Below, piece after piece: positions 5,649 through 45,665 of a DNA stretch of 53,051 nt. The position numbers were made by a program, and so were the translations under genes. The notes below the pieces were generated by a model. It was given only the letters and a program-made list of their open reading frames with translations, was not told where the DNA came from and ran no database searches. Within the stretch, counting starts at the first letter, position 1. The number at the start of each line of letters is the position of its first letter. Source of the stretch: Methanocaldococcus sp. (GTDB taxonomy: Archaea; AGJL01; Methanococci; Methanococcales; Methanocaldococcaceae); contig NZ_JACCLX010000042.1 of the NCBI RefSeq assembly GCF_024490875.1, positions 1-53,051 of the forward strand, read 5' to 3'.

Positions 5649-6926
5649 ATGGGAATGACAATTGTCGAGAAAATTTTAGCAAAAGCTTCTGGAAAGAAAG
5701 AGGTTAATCCAGGAGATATTGTAATGGCAAACATTGATGTGGCAATGGTTCATGATATTACAGGACCTTTAACAGTCAATACATTAAAAGAGTATGGAAT
5801 TGAGAAAGTTTGGAATCCAGAAAAAATAGTTATTCTTTTTGACCACCAAGTTCCTGCTGATAGTATAAAAGCCGCTGAAAACCACATATTAATGAGAAAA
5901 TTTGTTAAAGAACAAGGTATTAAGTATTTCTATGATATAAGAGAAGGTGTTTGCCACCAAGTGTTACCTGAAAAAGGGCATATAGCCCCTGGAGAAGTTG
6001 TTGTTGGTGCTGATAGTCATACATGCACACATGGAGCTTTTGGAGCTTTTGCCACAGGAATAGGTTCAACTGACATGGCTCATGTGTTTGCTACTGGTAA
6101 ATTATGGTTTAAAGTTCCTGAAACAATTTACTTCAACATTACAGGAGATTTACAACCTTATGTTACTTCAAAAGATGTTATTTTATCAATTATAGGAGAA
6201 GTTGGAGTTGATGGAGCTACATATAAGGCATGCCAATTTGGAGGAGAAACTGTAAAGAAGATGAGTATTGCTTCAAGAATGACCATGACTAACATGGCTA
6301 TTGAAATGGGTGGAAAAACTGGAATTATTGAGCCAGATGGAAAAACTATTCAATATGTAAAAGAGGCTATGAAAAAACATGGAACTGATAGACCATTTGA
6401 AATTGTAAAGGGGGATGAAGATGCAGAATTTGCCGAAGTTTATGAAATTGAGGCTGACAAGATAGAGCCCGTTTTTGCTTGTCCACACAATGTAGATAAT
6501 GTTAAACCAGCAAGAGAAGTTGCAGGAAAGCCAATAGATCAAGTATTTATTGGCTCATGTACAAACGGAAGATTAGAAGATTTAAAGATGGCTATTGAAA
6601 TTATTGATAAGCATGGAGGAATAGCAGATGATGTTAGAGTTATAGTTACCCCTGCATCAAGAGAAGAGTATTTAAAAGCTTTAAAAGAGGGAATAATTGA
6701 GAAATTCTTAAAGTATGGTTGTGTAGTTACAAATCCATCTTGCTCTGCATGTATGGGTTCATTGTATGGAGTTTTAGGACCAGGAGAGGTTTGTGTTTCA
6801 ACATCAAATAGAAACTTTAAAGGAAGACAAGGTTCCTTAGAGGCAGAGATTTATTTAGCATCACCAATAACTGCTGCTGCTTGTGCTGTTAAAGGAGAAT
6901 TAATAGATCCAAGGGATTTAGAATAA
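5649..6926 (+). CDS. leuC: 3-isopropylmalate/(R)-2-methylmalate dehydratase large subunit
   Basis: This is the large, cluster-binding subunit of an aconitase-family hydro-lyase that isomerises 2-isopropylmalate (leucine) and, in methanogens, citramalate (isoleucine). The 425-residue protein has [20 protein letters not shown] near residues 120-140. Three cluster Cys lie in GSCTNGR and in the later NPSCSACMG segment. Methanococci also have a homoaconitase paralogue for coenzyme B synthesis. The N-terminal sequence ([19 protein letters not shown]) matches my memory of the LeuC form rather than HacA. The small subunit is not nearby. The ribosome binding site GGTGATAGT fixes the ATG. Confidence 0.9.
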
Positions 6927-7034
6927 AGACCAAAAATATTAAATAACAGTTAAAATATACATAAGAGTAAATAAAATAATAAAAAATCATTCTAACCGTT
7001 TCCCATTTTCATAGCATAGTATTTAACAACTTAA

Positions 7035-7046
7035 TTTATATAAAAT
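7035..7046 (+). promoter_or_regulatory. TATA box of the candidate RNA
   Basis: TTTATATAAAAT matches the genus's TATA pattern and lies 20-30 bases before the structured segment that starts near 7060. It lies 100 bases past the leuC stop and points away from any protein gene start, which suggests an independent non-coding transcript. Confidence 0.45.
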
Positions 7047-7059
7047 CCGATAGCATTGG

Positions 7060-7162
7060 AAATGAGTTGTCTTCAACTCACAGATTCATCGAGATTACCA
7101 ATCTCTCCCTTGTGAGTTCATTGGACTTTGGGCTGAACGGAAACAGCCCCATAAACCTTTTT
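7060..7162 (+). ncRNA. Candidate structured small RNA of about 100 nt, family unknown
   Basis: The segment is more GC-rich than its surroundings. Hairpin TGAGTTG/CAACTCA (7063-7069 with 7074-7080) competes with a longer stem AACTCACA/TGTGAGTT (7075-7082 with 7111-7118), which encloses a perfect GAGATT/AATCTC hairpin (7091-7096 with 7100-7105). It ends in GGGCTG/CAGCCC (7130-7135 with 7144-7149) followed by a T run (7158-7162), like an intrinsic terminator. I could not match it to tRNA, 5S, SRP, RNase P or clear C/D or H/ACA guides. The strand is inferred from the TATA box and the T run. Confidence 0.45.
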
Positions 7163-7185
7163 ATCAAAATTAAAAATTATATTAA

Positions 7186-7218
7186 TCTCGAAGGCAGAGC
7201 CCTCTCATCGGTTAATTA
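7186..7218. repeat. Short inverted-repeat element with GC-rich core
   Basis: TTAATC and GGTTAA can pair around a core of about 22 bases that contains GGCAGAGCCCTCTC. On the minus strand the core begins GATGAGA and ends near CGAGA, weakly recalling C and D boxes, but neither matches the consensus well. It may be part of the neighbouring RNA, a degenerate guide RNA, or a small hairpin. Confidence 0.3.
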
Positions 7219-7250
7219 ATAATATACAGAAATTAAGAAACTGTTTCTAA

Positions 7251-7272
7251 CCCTACCTCAAAGTAGGTAGGG
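7251..7272. terminator. Strong hairpin between convergent genes
   Basis: CCCTACCT and AGGTAGGG form a perfect 8-base stem with a 6-base loop. No long T run follows on either strand, so it may act as a processing or protective hairpin, or as part of a two-hairpin bidirectional terminator with the next one. Confidence 0.5.
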
Positions 7273-7284
7273 TGTATATTTTAA

Positions 7285-7316
7285 CTGCACCCCATAGTGG
7301 GTGCAGTGCATTTTTT
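7285..7316 (+). terminator. Hairpin plus T run, probable transcription terminator
   Basis: CTGCACCC (7285-7292) and GGGTGCAG (7299-7306) pair perfectly with a 6-base loop and are followed by TGCA and six T (7311-7316). This is the strongest terminator-like structure in the window. It would stop plus-strand transcription just before the opposing gene's 3' end at 7338. Confidence 0.6.
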
Positions 7317-7337
7317 ATTATAAAATTTAAAAATTAC

Positions 7338-8384
7338 TTATTCGTCTGAACTCTTTTCACCACTATATATACTCCATAAAGCTATTAATGCAGATGGAAT
7401 GGCATGTTCTGTAGCAAATGTCATATGAGGGGCTAAGTCAATTACATAATCAGCAAATCTAAACAATCCTATTGGTATTCCCTCCCTTGAACCACAGAAT
7501 ACTACTATTTCCTTCTTTTTTCTTAAATCATAGGATAATTTATCTTTTATTTTTGAAATTTCTTCTCCTTTTGGATCAGTTATTATTATTAATCTATTAT
7601 TTCTCCTCTTATCTCTAATAACTTGATATAGATCCTGAACAGTTACAGGAACTAAAGAAATTTCAAATGGATATGCTCTCTTTTGAATCTCATATCTTGA
7701 ATGTTGCCCAATTTTAACCCCTTTTATGAATTCCATTAACTCGTAGGCATCTACTTTCTCTTTTGGAGATATAATTAATTCCTTAACCTCAAATCCTTGA
7801 GCGGCTCTACCTATTGCCTCTCCAAACCTTTTACAAACAATTTTTTCTCCTAAATAAGGCATTTGGACAATAACCACTTTTTTAAATAATTCTCTTGCAT
7901 TTCTTTTATCTTTTGTGTATTTTTTATATCTATCTTTATTAGTTATACAGATGTATGCCTTATCTTTAAAGATCTCAACATGAATAACTTTATCAGGTCT
8001 CTCTAAATCAACACTTGCATTAGTTAAATCTTTAATCTTAGCTCCCAAGACAATATTTACATCAATTGAATTAAAATCGTGTTTTCCTCTTTTTTTGGTC
8101 TCTACTGCAAATGTTTCTCCTTCTTGTATATAATCTTTAATTTTTTCAGCCATATTGACTATTTTTTCAAATTCTGCCTCAGTTTCAAAATAAACCTTTA
8201 AACATCTCTCAACTTCTGGAATTTGTAAAATTTTATCTTCAATATCTTCCTCACTTTCAATTATTACAACTCCATGATAACCATCTGGTGACACAATATA
8301 GTTAAAGTTTTCAACATAATCTTTTAATCTATTTACAACAATATTTTCAAAGCCTCTCTGAGTTTTTATTATATACTTTACCAT
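7338..8384 (-). CDS. THUMP-domain and SPOUT-like RNA methyltransferase-related protein
   Basis: The 348-residue protein has an N-terminal ferredoxin-like plus THUMP module (about 1-155, with RFGEAIGRAAQGF-type segments following) that binds RNA. The C-terminal domain ends in FCGSREGIPIGLFRFADYVIDLAP, typical of knotted SPOUT methyltransferases. The archaeal family is conserved but its RNA target is not known to me. The start at 8384 is set by GAGGTGG upstream of the ATG; the TTG one codon earlier is less likely. It starts 38 bases inside the 3' end of the preceding membrane-protein gene, implying translational coupling. Confidence 0.78.
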   Translation of the reverse strand: MVKYIIKTQRGFENIVVNRLKDYVENFNYIVSPDGYHGVVIIESEEDIEDKILQIPEVERCLKVYFETEAEFEKIVNMAEKIKDYIQEGETFAVETKKRGKHDFNSIDVNIVLGAKIKDLTNASVDLERPDKVIHVEIFKDKAYICITNKDRYKKYTKDKRNARELFKKVVIVQMPYLGEKIVCKRFGEAIGRAAQGFEVKELIISPKEKVDAYELMEFIKGVKIGQHSRYEIQKRAYPFEISLVPVTVQDLYQVIRDKRRNNRLIIITDPKGEEISKIKDKLSYDLRKKKEIVVFCGSREGIPIGLFRFADYVIDLAPHMTFATEHAIPSALIALWSIYSGEKSSDE

Positions 8385-9510
8385 CAAAATCCACCTCTAA
8401 TGAATTTAAATATATTAAGAAAAGTAAAACAATCAAAAAGCCATAGTTAATTCCTACTTCACAGTAAGTTAATAGTATCGAGGCATAAATGGCATAGAGT
8501 TTTTTATCTCCATTATATATATACTTTGAAACATAACCTAAAAATATAGCAAATAAAAAACTAAATATTCCAAAGTCTAAGAATACACTACCAAACATTA
8601 ATGTTGTTATATTATGCTTATAACCAAAAAGTATTTGTCCTATATAGCTCTCTCCGTTAGGAGTTAATATTATATTATATCCTAAACCAAACAATGAACT
8701 AATATCCAAAATTTTATTAAATACAGTCAAATCAAAGTATGCCCTATAACATAGTAAATTTAAAAAACCTATTTTCCAATGTTGATTTGAATTTAAAAGT
8801 ACTATAAAGCCAACGATATTTAAGATTAAAAATAGCCCTAAAAATATCAAAATAAGATGTTTTAAATTTATTTTATTTTTGTATTTGTAAATTATATATG
8901 AAACAGTGAGCATTAAAATTCCAGCTTTATATCCTAAGAGAGTTAATAAAACAAAACCTACTGCAAAATAAAAAATATTTTCAATGCCCGAATATATTAA
9001 TAAGCCAGTTGATATTAATCTCAATGGCTCAGAGTTTATAGCCATCCTTATATTATAATTTAGTAATGGAATCCCTTTATACTTTAAAACAATTAAAATA
9101 AAAGATAAAACCCCTCCTAAGAATACTAAATTATTAAAAAACTTGCTATTTTGATATTTTACAAATAACTTAACTATTAAGATTATAATAATTAAATAAA
9201 TAAATGTAAATAGTATTGAGTGAGTTATAGCAAAAGAACCATAACCTGTCAATATCAAAAAAGACAATAAAGATAAATTTTTAATAATATTTTTATTTAT
9301 TTCCAATTTTATATCTACAAAAAATGGCAAAGAAAAGGATATTAAAAAAATCCCAACAACTAATAAGATTTTTAAAAAGTTGTAAATTCCTATTTTATTT
9401 AAATATGGTAATGCCAATAAAATTATTGCCAAATGCCCAAAAACTACTATAAAAACTGGATGAAATAAATCTATCTCTTTAAGAATCTTTTTAATGTTGC
9501 ATAAATGCAT
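8347..9510 (-). CDS. Polytopic membrane protein, oligosaccharide repeat unit polymerase-like (copy 2)
   Basis: The 387 residues are nearly all hydrophobic, with about ten to twelve membrane segments and one larger outer loop around NQHWKIGFLNLLCYRAYFD. The layout, an Arg in the NIRMAINSEPLR segment and a GSVFLDFG motif near the C-terminus resemble archaeal Wzy/EpsG-like polymerases of surface polysaccharide. It is a paralogue of the preceding gene, which has VRYHLN and GSVVADFG at matching places. The ATG at 9510 follows GGTGTATTACT and lies 40 bases inside that gene. The polymerase role is inferred from topology and weak motifs. Confidence 0.6.
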   Translation of the reverse strand: MHLCNIKKILKEIDLFHPVFIVVFGHLAIILLALPYLNKIGIYNFLKILLVVGIFLISFSLPFFVDIKLEINKNIIKNLSLLSFLILTGYGSFAITHSILFTFIYLIIIILIVKLFVKYQNSKFFNNLVFLGGVLSFILIVLKYKGIPLLNYNIRMAINSEPLRLISTGLLIYSGIENIFYFAVGFVLLTLLGYKAGILMLTVSYIIYKYKNKINLKHLILIFLGLFLILNIVGFIVLLNSNQHWKIGFLNLLCYRAYFDLTVFNKILDISSLFGLGYNIILTPNGESYIGQILFGYKHNITTLMFGSVFLDFGIFSFLFAIFLGYVSKYIYNGDKKLYAIYASILLTYCEVGINYGFLIVLLFLIYLNSLEVDFDGKVYNKNSERL

Positions 9511-27156: not shown

Positions 27157-27441
27157 TTAAAATATCTTTAACATTAATATTATAACGGCAATGTATAGAA
27201 AAATAATTAAAATTTCTAAGAGTATTATGTTAATACGAATCATTTTTAAATTTTTTTTAATATCGTCCATAATCTTTAAATATAATCCGAAAATTAATAT
27301 AGTTTCTTGACTTAGTATTTTATTGGCTTTTTCATCAATCTTTTTCTCATTCTCTTTTAGTTTAGCATCTACTCTTTTTTCTAATTCCAAAATTTTTTTA
27401 TGTAATACTCTAATATTTTCTTCTATTTCTCTCTCGTCCAT
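27157..27441 (-). CDS. Small coiled-coil membrane protein
   Basis: The 94-residue protein has an N-terminal charged helix with heptad pattern (residues 1-45, rich in Glu, Lys, Ile and Leu) that should form a coiled coil. A C-terminal membrane helix follows (about 72-94, ending [18 protein letters not shown]). No family is recognised. It sits between lon and the aldolase with short gaps, so it is co-transcribed. Lon in archaea is membrane-bound, so an anchoring or adaptor role is possible but unproven. Confidence 0.65.
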
Positions 27442-27459
27442 AATAGCACTTTTTATTAT

Positions 27460-29424
27460 TTATTTAGCAATTTTAGATATTTCAGTTTTTGTATTTTTTA
27501 TAGAATCTAAGTCAAACACCAAAGGAATTATTTCATCCAATGTTTTTACTGGAATAATTTCTATTCCCTCACTATCTATAACATCAATTAAATTAGCCTC
27601 TGGAATTATAACCCTCTTGAACCCATATTTCTTTGCCGCCTCTATCTTTTCATTAACTCCTCCAATTGCCAATACATTTCCATTTAAATCTAAACTTCCA
27701 GTAATAGCAAAGTCTTGTTTTAATGGGATATTTAATAAAGCAGATATTATTGCTAAACAAACAGCCGCTGTAGCACTATCTCCATCTATTTTAGAGTATG
27801 ACTGACTAAATTGGATATAAATCTCTTTATTATTTAGATCTATATCTTTCTTAGGTAGTGGAAGTTTTCCATCACTAACGAGTTTTTTTGATAATGCAGA
27901 TGCCAAAGTTATTGAGTGTTTTGCAATGTCCCCTGATATATTTAATAAGTGAGTTCCTGGATTCTTTGAGTCTAATATTTGGACTATAATTTTGGTTACA
28001 TCTCCAATTCCTCCAACTCCTATAACTGCCAATCCATATACTACCCCAACTTTTGGTGTATCGTTAGGCACTATGTGTTTGTATCTCTTAAAGTTTTTAA
28101 TGTAGTTTATTGCTACCTGTTTCTCCATACTGTAAATTCCAGATTCAAACACCTTCCTAATATGCTCAGCAGTGATATATACTTTTTTATGCTCATCTTT
28201 TTTGGTCTCTGGATTGTAATTACCTTTTTCATCAAAGTTTCCTAATAATTCTTCGATTTCTTTACCCATTGCTATATCGTTTGCCATTTTTATAATGTTA
28301 GCAAGTAATCTTAACCTCAATGTTAATTTATCCTTAGAACCAGCTAAGTATTGAGCAATTTTAACTACTTCACAACATCCATCATAAGTCATTGGATTTA
28401 AATTGTTATTTTTTATTTCTTGAACAATGAACTGTAAAATCTTATCTCTATTTTCTAAGGTATTATCCATTTTGTTCTTTAAAACAATTTTATAGTCAAT
28501 TCTATCCAATAGAGGGGCTCTTAAATTATAAACATCATCCATATTTCCAGACATTATTAAAATAAAATCACATGGAATTGGATTAGTTTCTACAGTTGCC
28601 CCACTTGAGTTTGGATTTCTTCCACTAATTGGGAGACATTTATCTTGTAATGCAGTTAATATATAATCTTGAACTTCTAAGGGCATTGTTTTTATTTCAT
28701 CAACATACAAAATTCCTCTATGAGCCTCGTGAATAGCTCCTAATATAATTCTCTTATGTGGAGGAGTTCCTAATGGAGGTCTTCCACCTAATGGACAGTG
28801 CTTAATATCTCCCAATAATCTCGTTACATTGTATGCACTTGCCCTAACAAGAGGTCTTTTTTTGCATTCATATAATAGAACTGGTTTTAAATCCATTGGA
28901 CTTAAAGTATTACTCATTGATGATCTTGAAGCCCCCATTAGACTTGTTAATATTATAACAAATCCAAATATTAATACAATTAAAGATGTTACTGTTACTG
29001 CTGCAAGTAAATAATTTTCAGGCATACTTTTTAAAAAATACTGTGATAGAAGAATAGCCCCAACCATTATTAAAATTAGAGTCATTGGATTAGAAGTTTT
29101 TAAATCAATTTTAGGAATTTCTTTTGTATCCTCTTTATATTCTCCATCAATAACTTCTACAATAGGTCTCTCCATATTTTTTAAATTAGGTTTTGCTATT
29201 ACATAGTAAGGGGTAAAATCTCCAAAATCTTGTAGAATTTCTCCAACTGCCTTTACAATCATTGATTTTCCAACTCCCGGTTCTCCTAATAAAATAACAT
29301 TTCTTTTATTTTTAACTGCTGACAAAATAATCCTAACGGCTTCATCTTGTCCAATAACCTGATCAATAAGTCTTGGGGAGGGTTCAGGCAATTCTTCCGT
29401 AGTTTTAAATTTTATTGAAAACAT
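27460..29424 (-). CDS. lon: Membrane-bound ATP-dependent protease LonB
   Basis: Archaeal LonB degrades unfolded and membrane proteins. The 654-residue protein has Walker A GEPGVGKS (47-54), two membrane helices (about 114-131 and 139-163) inserted in the ATPase domain, Walker B GILYVDEI (237-244), and a C-terminal protease domain. Its catalytic dyad is Ser550 (DGDSATAAV) and Lys593 (NEKIEAAKK), 43 residues apart as in other Lon enzymes. The N-terminal substrate domain of bacterial Lon is absent, as usual for archaea. It leads the operon with the coiled-coil protein and aldolase, with GGTGTTATT before the ATG. Confidence 0.95.
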   Translation of the reverse strand: MFSIKFKTTEELPEPSPRLIDQVIGQDEAVRIILSAVKNKRNVILLGEPGVGKSMIVKAVGEILQDFGDFTPYYVIAKPNLKNMERPIVEVIDGEYKEDTKEIPKIDLKTSNPMTLILIMVGAILLSQYFLKSMPENYLLAAVTVTSLIVLIFGFVIILTSLMGASRSSMSNTLSPMDLKPVLLYECKKRPLVRASAYNVTRLLGDIKHCPLGGRPPLGTPPHKRIILGAIHEAHRGILYVDEIKTMPLEVQDYILTALQDKCLPISGRNPNSSGATVETNPIPCDFILIMSGNMDDVYNLRAPLLDRIDYKIVLKNKMDNTLENRDKILQFIVQEIKNNNLNPMTYDGCCEVVKIAQYLAGSKDKLTLRLRLLANIIKMANDIAMGKEIEELLGNFDEKGNYNPETKKDEHKKVYITAEHIRKVFESGIYSMEKQVAINYIKNFKRYKHIVPNDTPKVGVVYGLAVIGVGGIGDVTKIIVQILDSKNPGTHLLNISGDIAKHSITLASALSKKLVSDGKLPLPKKDIDLNNKEIYIQFSQSYSKIDGDSATAAVCLAIISALLNIPLKQDFAITGSLDLNGNVLAIGGVNEKIEAAKKYGFKRVIIPEANLIDVIDSEGIEIIPVKTLDEIIPLVFDLDSIKNTKTEISKIAK

Positions 29425-45593: not shown

Positions 45594-45665
45594 TGTGCCC
45601 CGGGGGAGCAAAGGAGAATCATCGCTTGCCGGGCTGTTGCTCATCTCCCGCGGTTTCCCGGGGCA
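45594..45665 (-). ncRNA. H/ACA-like sRNA (pseudouridylation guide)
   Basis: The GC-rich block stands out from the AT background. On the minus strand it folds as a lower stem GCCCCGGG/CCCGGGGC (45664-45657 with 45604-45597), then an internal pocket with 5' side AAACCG and 3' side UUUGCUCC. An upper stem GGAGA/UCUCC continues into a kink-turn (UGA on one side, GAUGA on the other) and a short apical helix. ACA (45596-45594) follows the stem directly. The pocket is complementary to an archaeal 16S rRNA stretch of the form GGAGC-CUG-CGGUUU, as I recall it, which predicts the U before the G as target. Confidence 0.8.

Follow-up and report, generated by a model that had tools for sequence, protein, structure and literature searches.

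A predicted non-autonomous IS607-type mini-element with a putative TnpB guide-RNA scaffold in a convergent gene gap of Methanocaldococcus

What occupies a long gap between two convergent genes in a compact archaeal genome? Within the window, the 53,051-nucleotide stretch of Methanocaldococcus DNA analysed here, 411 bases (6927-7337) separate the gene for a homoaconitase/isopropylmalate dehydratase large subunit (5649-6926, + strand) from that for a THUMP/SPOUT RNA methylase (7338-8387, - strand). An initial annotation proposed that this gap, too long for so compact a genome, encodes an unassigned structured RNA on the + strand, with its own TATA box and two mutually exclusive stems resembling a switch. 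The gap and all four stems are where that annotation placed them: read on the + strand, TGAGTT/AACTCA joins 7063-7068 to 7075-7080, AACTCACA/TGTGAGTT joins 7075-7082 to 7111-7118, GAGATT/AATCTC joins 7091-7096 to 7100-7105 and GGGCTG/CAGCCC joins 7130-7135 to 7144-7149. The TATA-like sequence, TTTATATAAAA, lies at 7035-7045.

Folding of the + strand between 7040 and 7160 gave z = -2.4 against shuffles, 6 of 200 of which folded equally well, and for a longer region z was about -1.7 whichever strand was folded, so that single-sequence folding offers no choice between them. The earlier failure to match a known RNA class was borne out by Rfam, which returned no significant match in this region at gathering or relaxed thresholds and none in four further loci with members of the family described below; the model of RAGATH-18, a bacterial IS607 reRNA, was likewise unmatched in the region and in the four family loci, and a tRNA search found none. 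Elsewhere in the window, an H/ACA guide RNA of the Pab160 family (Rfam RF02796) scored 74 bits, above the curated cut-off, at 45594-45664 on the - strand.

The origin of the gap became apparent from comparison with related genomes. When the gap sequence was used as a query against 61 genomes, its outer parts (query positions 1-68 and 316-408) matched one place in genome G013, and its middle (about 67-315) matched many places. The same gap holds an empty site in three relatives, G013 (L034), G009 (L051) and G005 (L058), where, on the minus strand, GAGGTAGGG runs directly into TTAGAATGATT, the sequence reading ...GAGGTAGGG TTAGAATGATTTTTT... in all three. In the window, 255 bp (6996-7250) are inserted between AGGG and TTAGAATG in minus-strand reading, with a boundary ambiguous by the 2-bp GG. 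The unusual length of the gap is thus accounted for by one insertion, which abuts a host hairpin at 7250-7273; this hairpin and another at 7284-7307, both on the - strand in the 3' region of the THUMP/SPOUT gene, are kept beside the empty sites of the relatives, and the insertion lies between the first of them and the T-rich tail of that gene. Judged by its sequence, 6996-7250 is a non-autonomous IS607-type mini-element whose tnpB sense lies on the minus strand.

The 8-bp TTCTAACC is present on both sides of the insertion and could alternatively be a target duplication. We rejected an eight-base duplication and prefer insertion by GG crossover, because almost every copy has a right end (RE) that terminates in CGG and is followed by unrelated DNA, although a single site is no proof. 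The TTAGAA common to both sides after GG, seen at this one site only, is then explained by chance likeness of the left end (LE) and the target.

The window copy retains an LE, a complete RE and, between them, pieces of the 3' end of tnpB, and lacks tnpA and nearly all of tnpB. On the minus strand, its LE, TTAGAAACAGTTTCTTAATTTCTGTA (7225..7250), fits the family consensus TT(C/T)GAAACAGTTTCTTA(A/G)TTTCTGTA and holds the short direct repeats GTTTC/ATTTC; beside it lies AGGG (7251..7254), the target site and putative target-adjacent motif (TAM), which is present in the empty sites, and (A)GGG flanks the LE in most family copies. A CRISPR leader or repeat, considered for the GTTTC/GAAAC ends, was rejected, as full-length copies encode TnpB. 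A tnpB remnant coding for DERALPSR (7186..7209, - strand) contains hairpin H0 (GAGGGC/GCCTTC, 7190-7204, - strand), which forms in the minus-strand fold. With at most 5 mismatches allowed, this stretch is recognisable in 47 of the 52 copies, even though mini-elements encode no TnpB; H0 may belong to the RNA, or its retention could stem from common descent of the mini-elements. A second remnant (7090..7168, - strand), which corresponds by homology to the codons for the C-terminus in intact TnpB ORFs, overlaps the putative scaffold of a TnpB guide RNA (reRNA or omegaRNA) at 6996..7159 on the - strand, which scores 163.6 bits with covariance model R1. The predicted scaffold contains helices H1 (7130-7149), H2 (7075-7118), H3 (7091-7105) and H5 (7003-7015 with 7053-7065), in the last of which the end of the RE pairs with an inverted copy of itself further in. 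The RE terminus, ...GCTATGAAAATGGGAAACGG (6996..7015, - strand), carries the GGGAAACGG conserved in nearly all copies, and host DNA flanking it supplies the putative guide, TTAGAATGATTTTTTATTAT (6976..6995, - strand).

A covariance model of the structured side found 52 strong matches in eight Methanocaldococcales genomes: 17 in G009, 15 in G013, 6 in G005, 5 in G001, 4 in G008, 2 each in G000, the genome that contains the window, and in G016, and 1 in G012; a weak match in G024 is not counted. Almost every copy terminates in GGGAAACGG, beyond which the DNA is unrelated, and most of those with a findable LE begin with the consensus after (A)GGG. Copies mostly measure 210-370 bp, and absence of the window copy from the orthologous gap in three genomes, together with ends common to dozens of copies, marks it as one of them. 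An insertion downstream of a same-sense gene was seen in 21 of 37 cases, no clear excess, and the copies are not independent.

In the longest copies, which measure about 1.5-1.8 kb, the strand equivalent to the window's minus strand encodes a 421-442-amino-acid protein. Pfam assigns it a Cas12f1-like_TNB domain, and the NCBIfam guided_TnpB model scores 102 bits for one copy and 91 for another (cut-off 100). Only five copies hold an intact tnpB (one each in G000, G005 and G016, two in G001), the single open gene of G000 being a 425-aa ORF in a copy with a damaged H1 and a TnpB with a shifted C-terminus. A shortened TnpB of 315 aa is encoded in an open frame by two copies of G009, in L053 (positions 1962-2909) and in L054, the two copies lying at G009:C1:1030742-1031602 and 493684-494544; an internal deletion removes its first RuvC aspartate stretch (YALDFNLDN) and keeps the C-terminal part, which would fit a nuclease-dead derivative as well as a product of decay. 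G013 has a related, shorter copy (L040).

Directly upstream of the G000 tnpB (27245-28465), a PF00239 resolvase-domain match (G000:C6:26871-27197) marks a frameshifted, N-terminally truncated tnpA whose closest solved structures in the PDB are MJ0014 and the ISC1926 TnpA; no intact tnpA was found in G000. GG stands at both termini and at the target (AGGG before the LE, ACGG at the RE, AGGG in the empty site), and IS607 elements are known to have GG at their ends and target and to insert without duplication (PMC6188088; PMC10711439). On this sequence evidence the family is of IS607 type, because a serine-recombinase tnpA lies upstream of tnpB and GG occurs at ends and target with no clear duplication. 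Our first assumption, an IS605 type, was dropped: a Y1 TnpA (PF01797) was absent from G000, G008, G009 and G005, the genomes covered by that search (G013 lay outside it), and a serine recombinase stands beside tnpB. For the same reason, namely that the tnpA remnants adjoining tnpB are those of a serine recombinase, the family does not belong with the IS200/IS605 PATEs. In G008, an isolated LE-like sequence (L155 position 3272; G008:C1, about 15771) lies near an MJ0014-type tnpA/tnpB element, with no matching RE found nearby.

A TnpB guide RNA consists of the tnpB 3' end, the RE and about 16 nt of flanking DNA (PMC8612924), and IS607 TnpBs use a right-end RNA running into the flank (PMC10711439, PMC11061315). 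The stems of the window fall in precisely this reRNA-equivalent stretch, which leads us to expect an RNA on the minus strand; 6996..7159 is therefore a putative reRNA scaffold, with the flanking ~16-20 nt as candidate guide. In an alignment of 35 copies, 91% of cells in H1, H2, H3 and H5 are paired, a value that falls to 29-46% when partners are slid, and 12 of 34 pairs show changes in both partners, where shuffles give 7.7 +/- 1.5. The window copy still forms 6/6 pairs of H1, 8/9 of H2, 6/6 of H3 and 10/13 of H5, about as well as the tnpB-carrying copy of G000.

The same alignment bears on the discrete, trans-acting + strand RNA with a two-state switch that was first proposed, a reading that we now regard as highly improbable. 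A TATA-like box, stems and a T run do lie on the + strand, and either alternative stem can form. Of the two competing stems, however, 7075-7118 (H2) covaries across copies whereas 7063-7080 does not, with a covariation score of 0.108 where shuffles give 0.109; its arms also take part in H2 and H5, which explains its conservation without a switch. Compensatory change, the check that the initial annotation had suggested, is seen in the scaffold helices and not in the alternative stem, and a riboswitch-like RNA finds no support. The TATA-like sequence exists, but it sits in the variable loop between the H5 arms (7035..7046, + strand), and TTTATATA occurs in 9/52 copies, which argues against a dedicated promoter; with at most one mismatch, the motif occurs 64 times in the window against a chance expectation of 45, making a + strand match weak evidence for a promoter. 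The GGGCTG stem is indeed followed by a T run, which is, however, the complement of Lys-Arg codons in the tnpB remnant and hence antisense to them, and the whole region is a tnpB-derived insertion. The region is therefore structured and outside any Rfam family, as first described, but as a transposon insertion with minus-strand sense; the preference for a trans-acting role over a leader is retained as a putative function.

Mismatch polarity is divided. Over all helices, G.U and A.C mismatches pick no single strand: H2, with 60 G.U against 31 A.C, favours the tnpB sense, and H5, with 13 against 31, favours the opposite strand. A quite unlikely reading is that the palindromes act only as DNA, the short repeats and the inverted RE copy forming H5 being transposase binding sites at the ends with no RNA function. 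IS607 TnpA binds multiple subterminal repeats (PMC6188088), and H5 joins the RE end to an inner inverted copy with a polarity that does not favour tnpB-sense RNA. Against it, the covarying helices H2 and H3 are located deeper within the element, the wobbles of H2 favour tnpB-sense RNA, and IS607 TnpBs are known to use a comparable reRNA (PMC11061315, PMC10711439). Taken together, we put at roughly 0.8 the probability that the window element is a non-autonomous IS607-family element with a reRNA region usable in trans, a figure that mainly reflects identity (a transposon, of IS607 type, with a reRNA-equivalent region) and overlaps the weight given below to an inert copy.

How such an RNA might act can be outlined from the flanks. 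In all three relatives with an empty site (G009, G005 and G013), AGGG precedes TTAGAATGATTTTTTATTAT; at the RE junction of the window genome, ACGG stands before TTAGAATGATTTTTTATTAT. TAMs reported for IS607 TnpBs are GGG, AGGAG and GAGGG (PMC10711439, PMC11061315), and AGGG, as read from the flanks, is the putative TAM of the family's TnpB. The copy has inserted at AGGG in the convergent gap and separates the THUMP/SPOUT gene from its T-rich tail. Under the mechanism that we propose, the minus strand would be transcribed, most simply as THUMP/SPOUT read-through. Many copies, long and short, have an inward TATA-like box near +41 of the LE; the window copy does not, so we infer that minus-strand transcription here would depend on read-through, the T-rich tail now lying beyond the element. 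The transcript of the tnpB 3' end and RE would fold into a TnpB reRNA with host TTAGAATGATTTTTTATTAT as its 3' tail and be bound in trans by TnpB from the other G000 copy. TnpB loaded with this RNA would cut unoccupied sites marked by AGGG, its target being AGGG-TTAGAATGATTTTTTATT DNA, and would spare the occupied site because its RE junction reads ACGG; a requirement for AGGG or GGG would be enough for this distinction. Cutting of empty sites would favour retention of the element through repair from the occupied copy, a retention logic already proposed for TnpB (PMC8612924).

That the guide RNA of the window copy is expressed and functions is something we infer from these features, and we would place its working use a little below even odds. 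The main competitor is an inert relic, the same IS607 mini-element as dead DNA whose guide RNA is neither transcribed nor used, which disputes present function only and to which we give nearly, though not quite, an even chance. It gains from the missing inward LE box, from the lack of an intact tnpA in G000 and from the near-neutral drift of fixed solo copies: between G009 and G013, site-sharing solo copies have changed at 9.3% of paired and 10.7% of unpaired positions; of the pairs with changes, 42 were lost and 21 kept. Family-wide covariation consequently shows that the structure was of importance in lineages with active elements; it does not show that every solo copy is in use. Set against a relic, the helix pairs of the window copy still form about as in the G000 tnpB copy, and an open tnpB persists in that genome. 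At the sites shared by G009 and G013 (L054/L040, L050/L172 and others), the elements differ by about 10% and most 150-bp right flanks are 95-100% identical, which suggests that element content has been replaced, for example by gene conversion between copies.

What had been an unassigned structured RNA thus becomes a named element, its RNA moved to the other strand and its putative guide and target open to testing. The comparison also points to high-copy IS607 mini-elements, each with its own flank-derived putative guide, in this genus of hyperthermophilic archaea, and it can now be asked whether the solo guide RNAs work with TnpB in trans or are debris. We consider it unlikely that Methanocaldococcus keeps a repertoire of dispersed solo guides, at up to about 17 loci, serving one TnpB in trans; equally doubtful is the variant in which the partner is the shortened TnpB lacking the first RuvC motif. 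If true, the arrangement would resemble a guide array, with a single protein guarding many insertion sites.

Solo derivatives lacking tnpB with a complete RE (PATE-like, IS605; PMC7290912) and IS607 reRNAs are already known; in the literature covered, which excluded ISfinder and most subscription papers, we found no description of this family in Methanocaldococcus. Like IS607-family transposons (IS607, IS1535, ISC1926, ISXfa1 and the MJ0014 recombinase of M. jannaschii), the family has a serine-recombinase tnpA upstream of tnpB, GG at termini and target and short subterminal repeats; it differs in that the window copy has neither gene and the G000 tnpB copy has a broken tnpA. The putative RNA resembles TnpB reRNAs (ISDra2; ISXfa1 and ISFba1 for IS607) in combining the tnpB 3' end with the RE over about 165 nt and several stem-loops, followed by a variable flank whose adjoining motif is kept in the empty site, a G-rich motif like those of IS607 TnpBs, but it is unmatched in Rfam and encoded apart from a TnpB gene. 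The same architecture is found in PATE-like or MITE derivatives of tnpB elements, which share the short LE, the tnpB 3' scrap and the complete RE, such as the element of Halanaerobium hydrogeniformans with a 28 nt LE, the last 58 nt of tnpB and a whole RE (PMC7290912). That element is IS605-derived, with a Y1 transposase, whereas the window element is IS607-derived and, unlike the PATE-like example, belongs to a family that reaches high copy number in some archaeal genomes.
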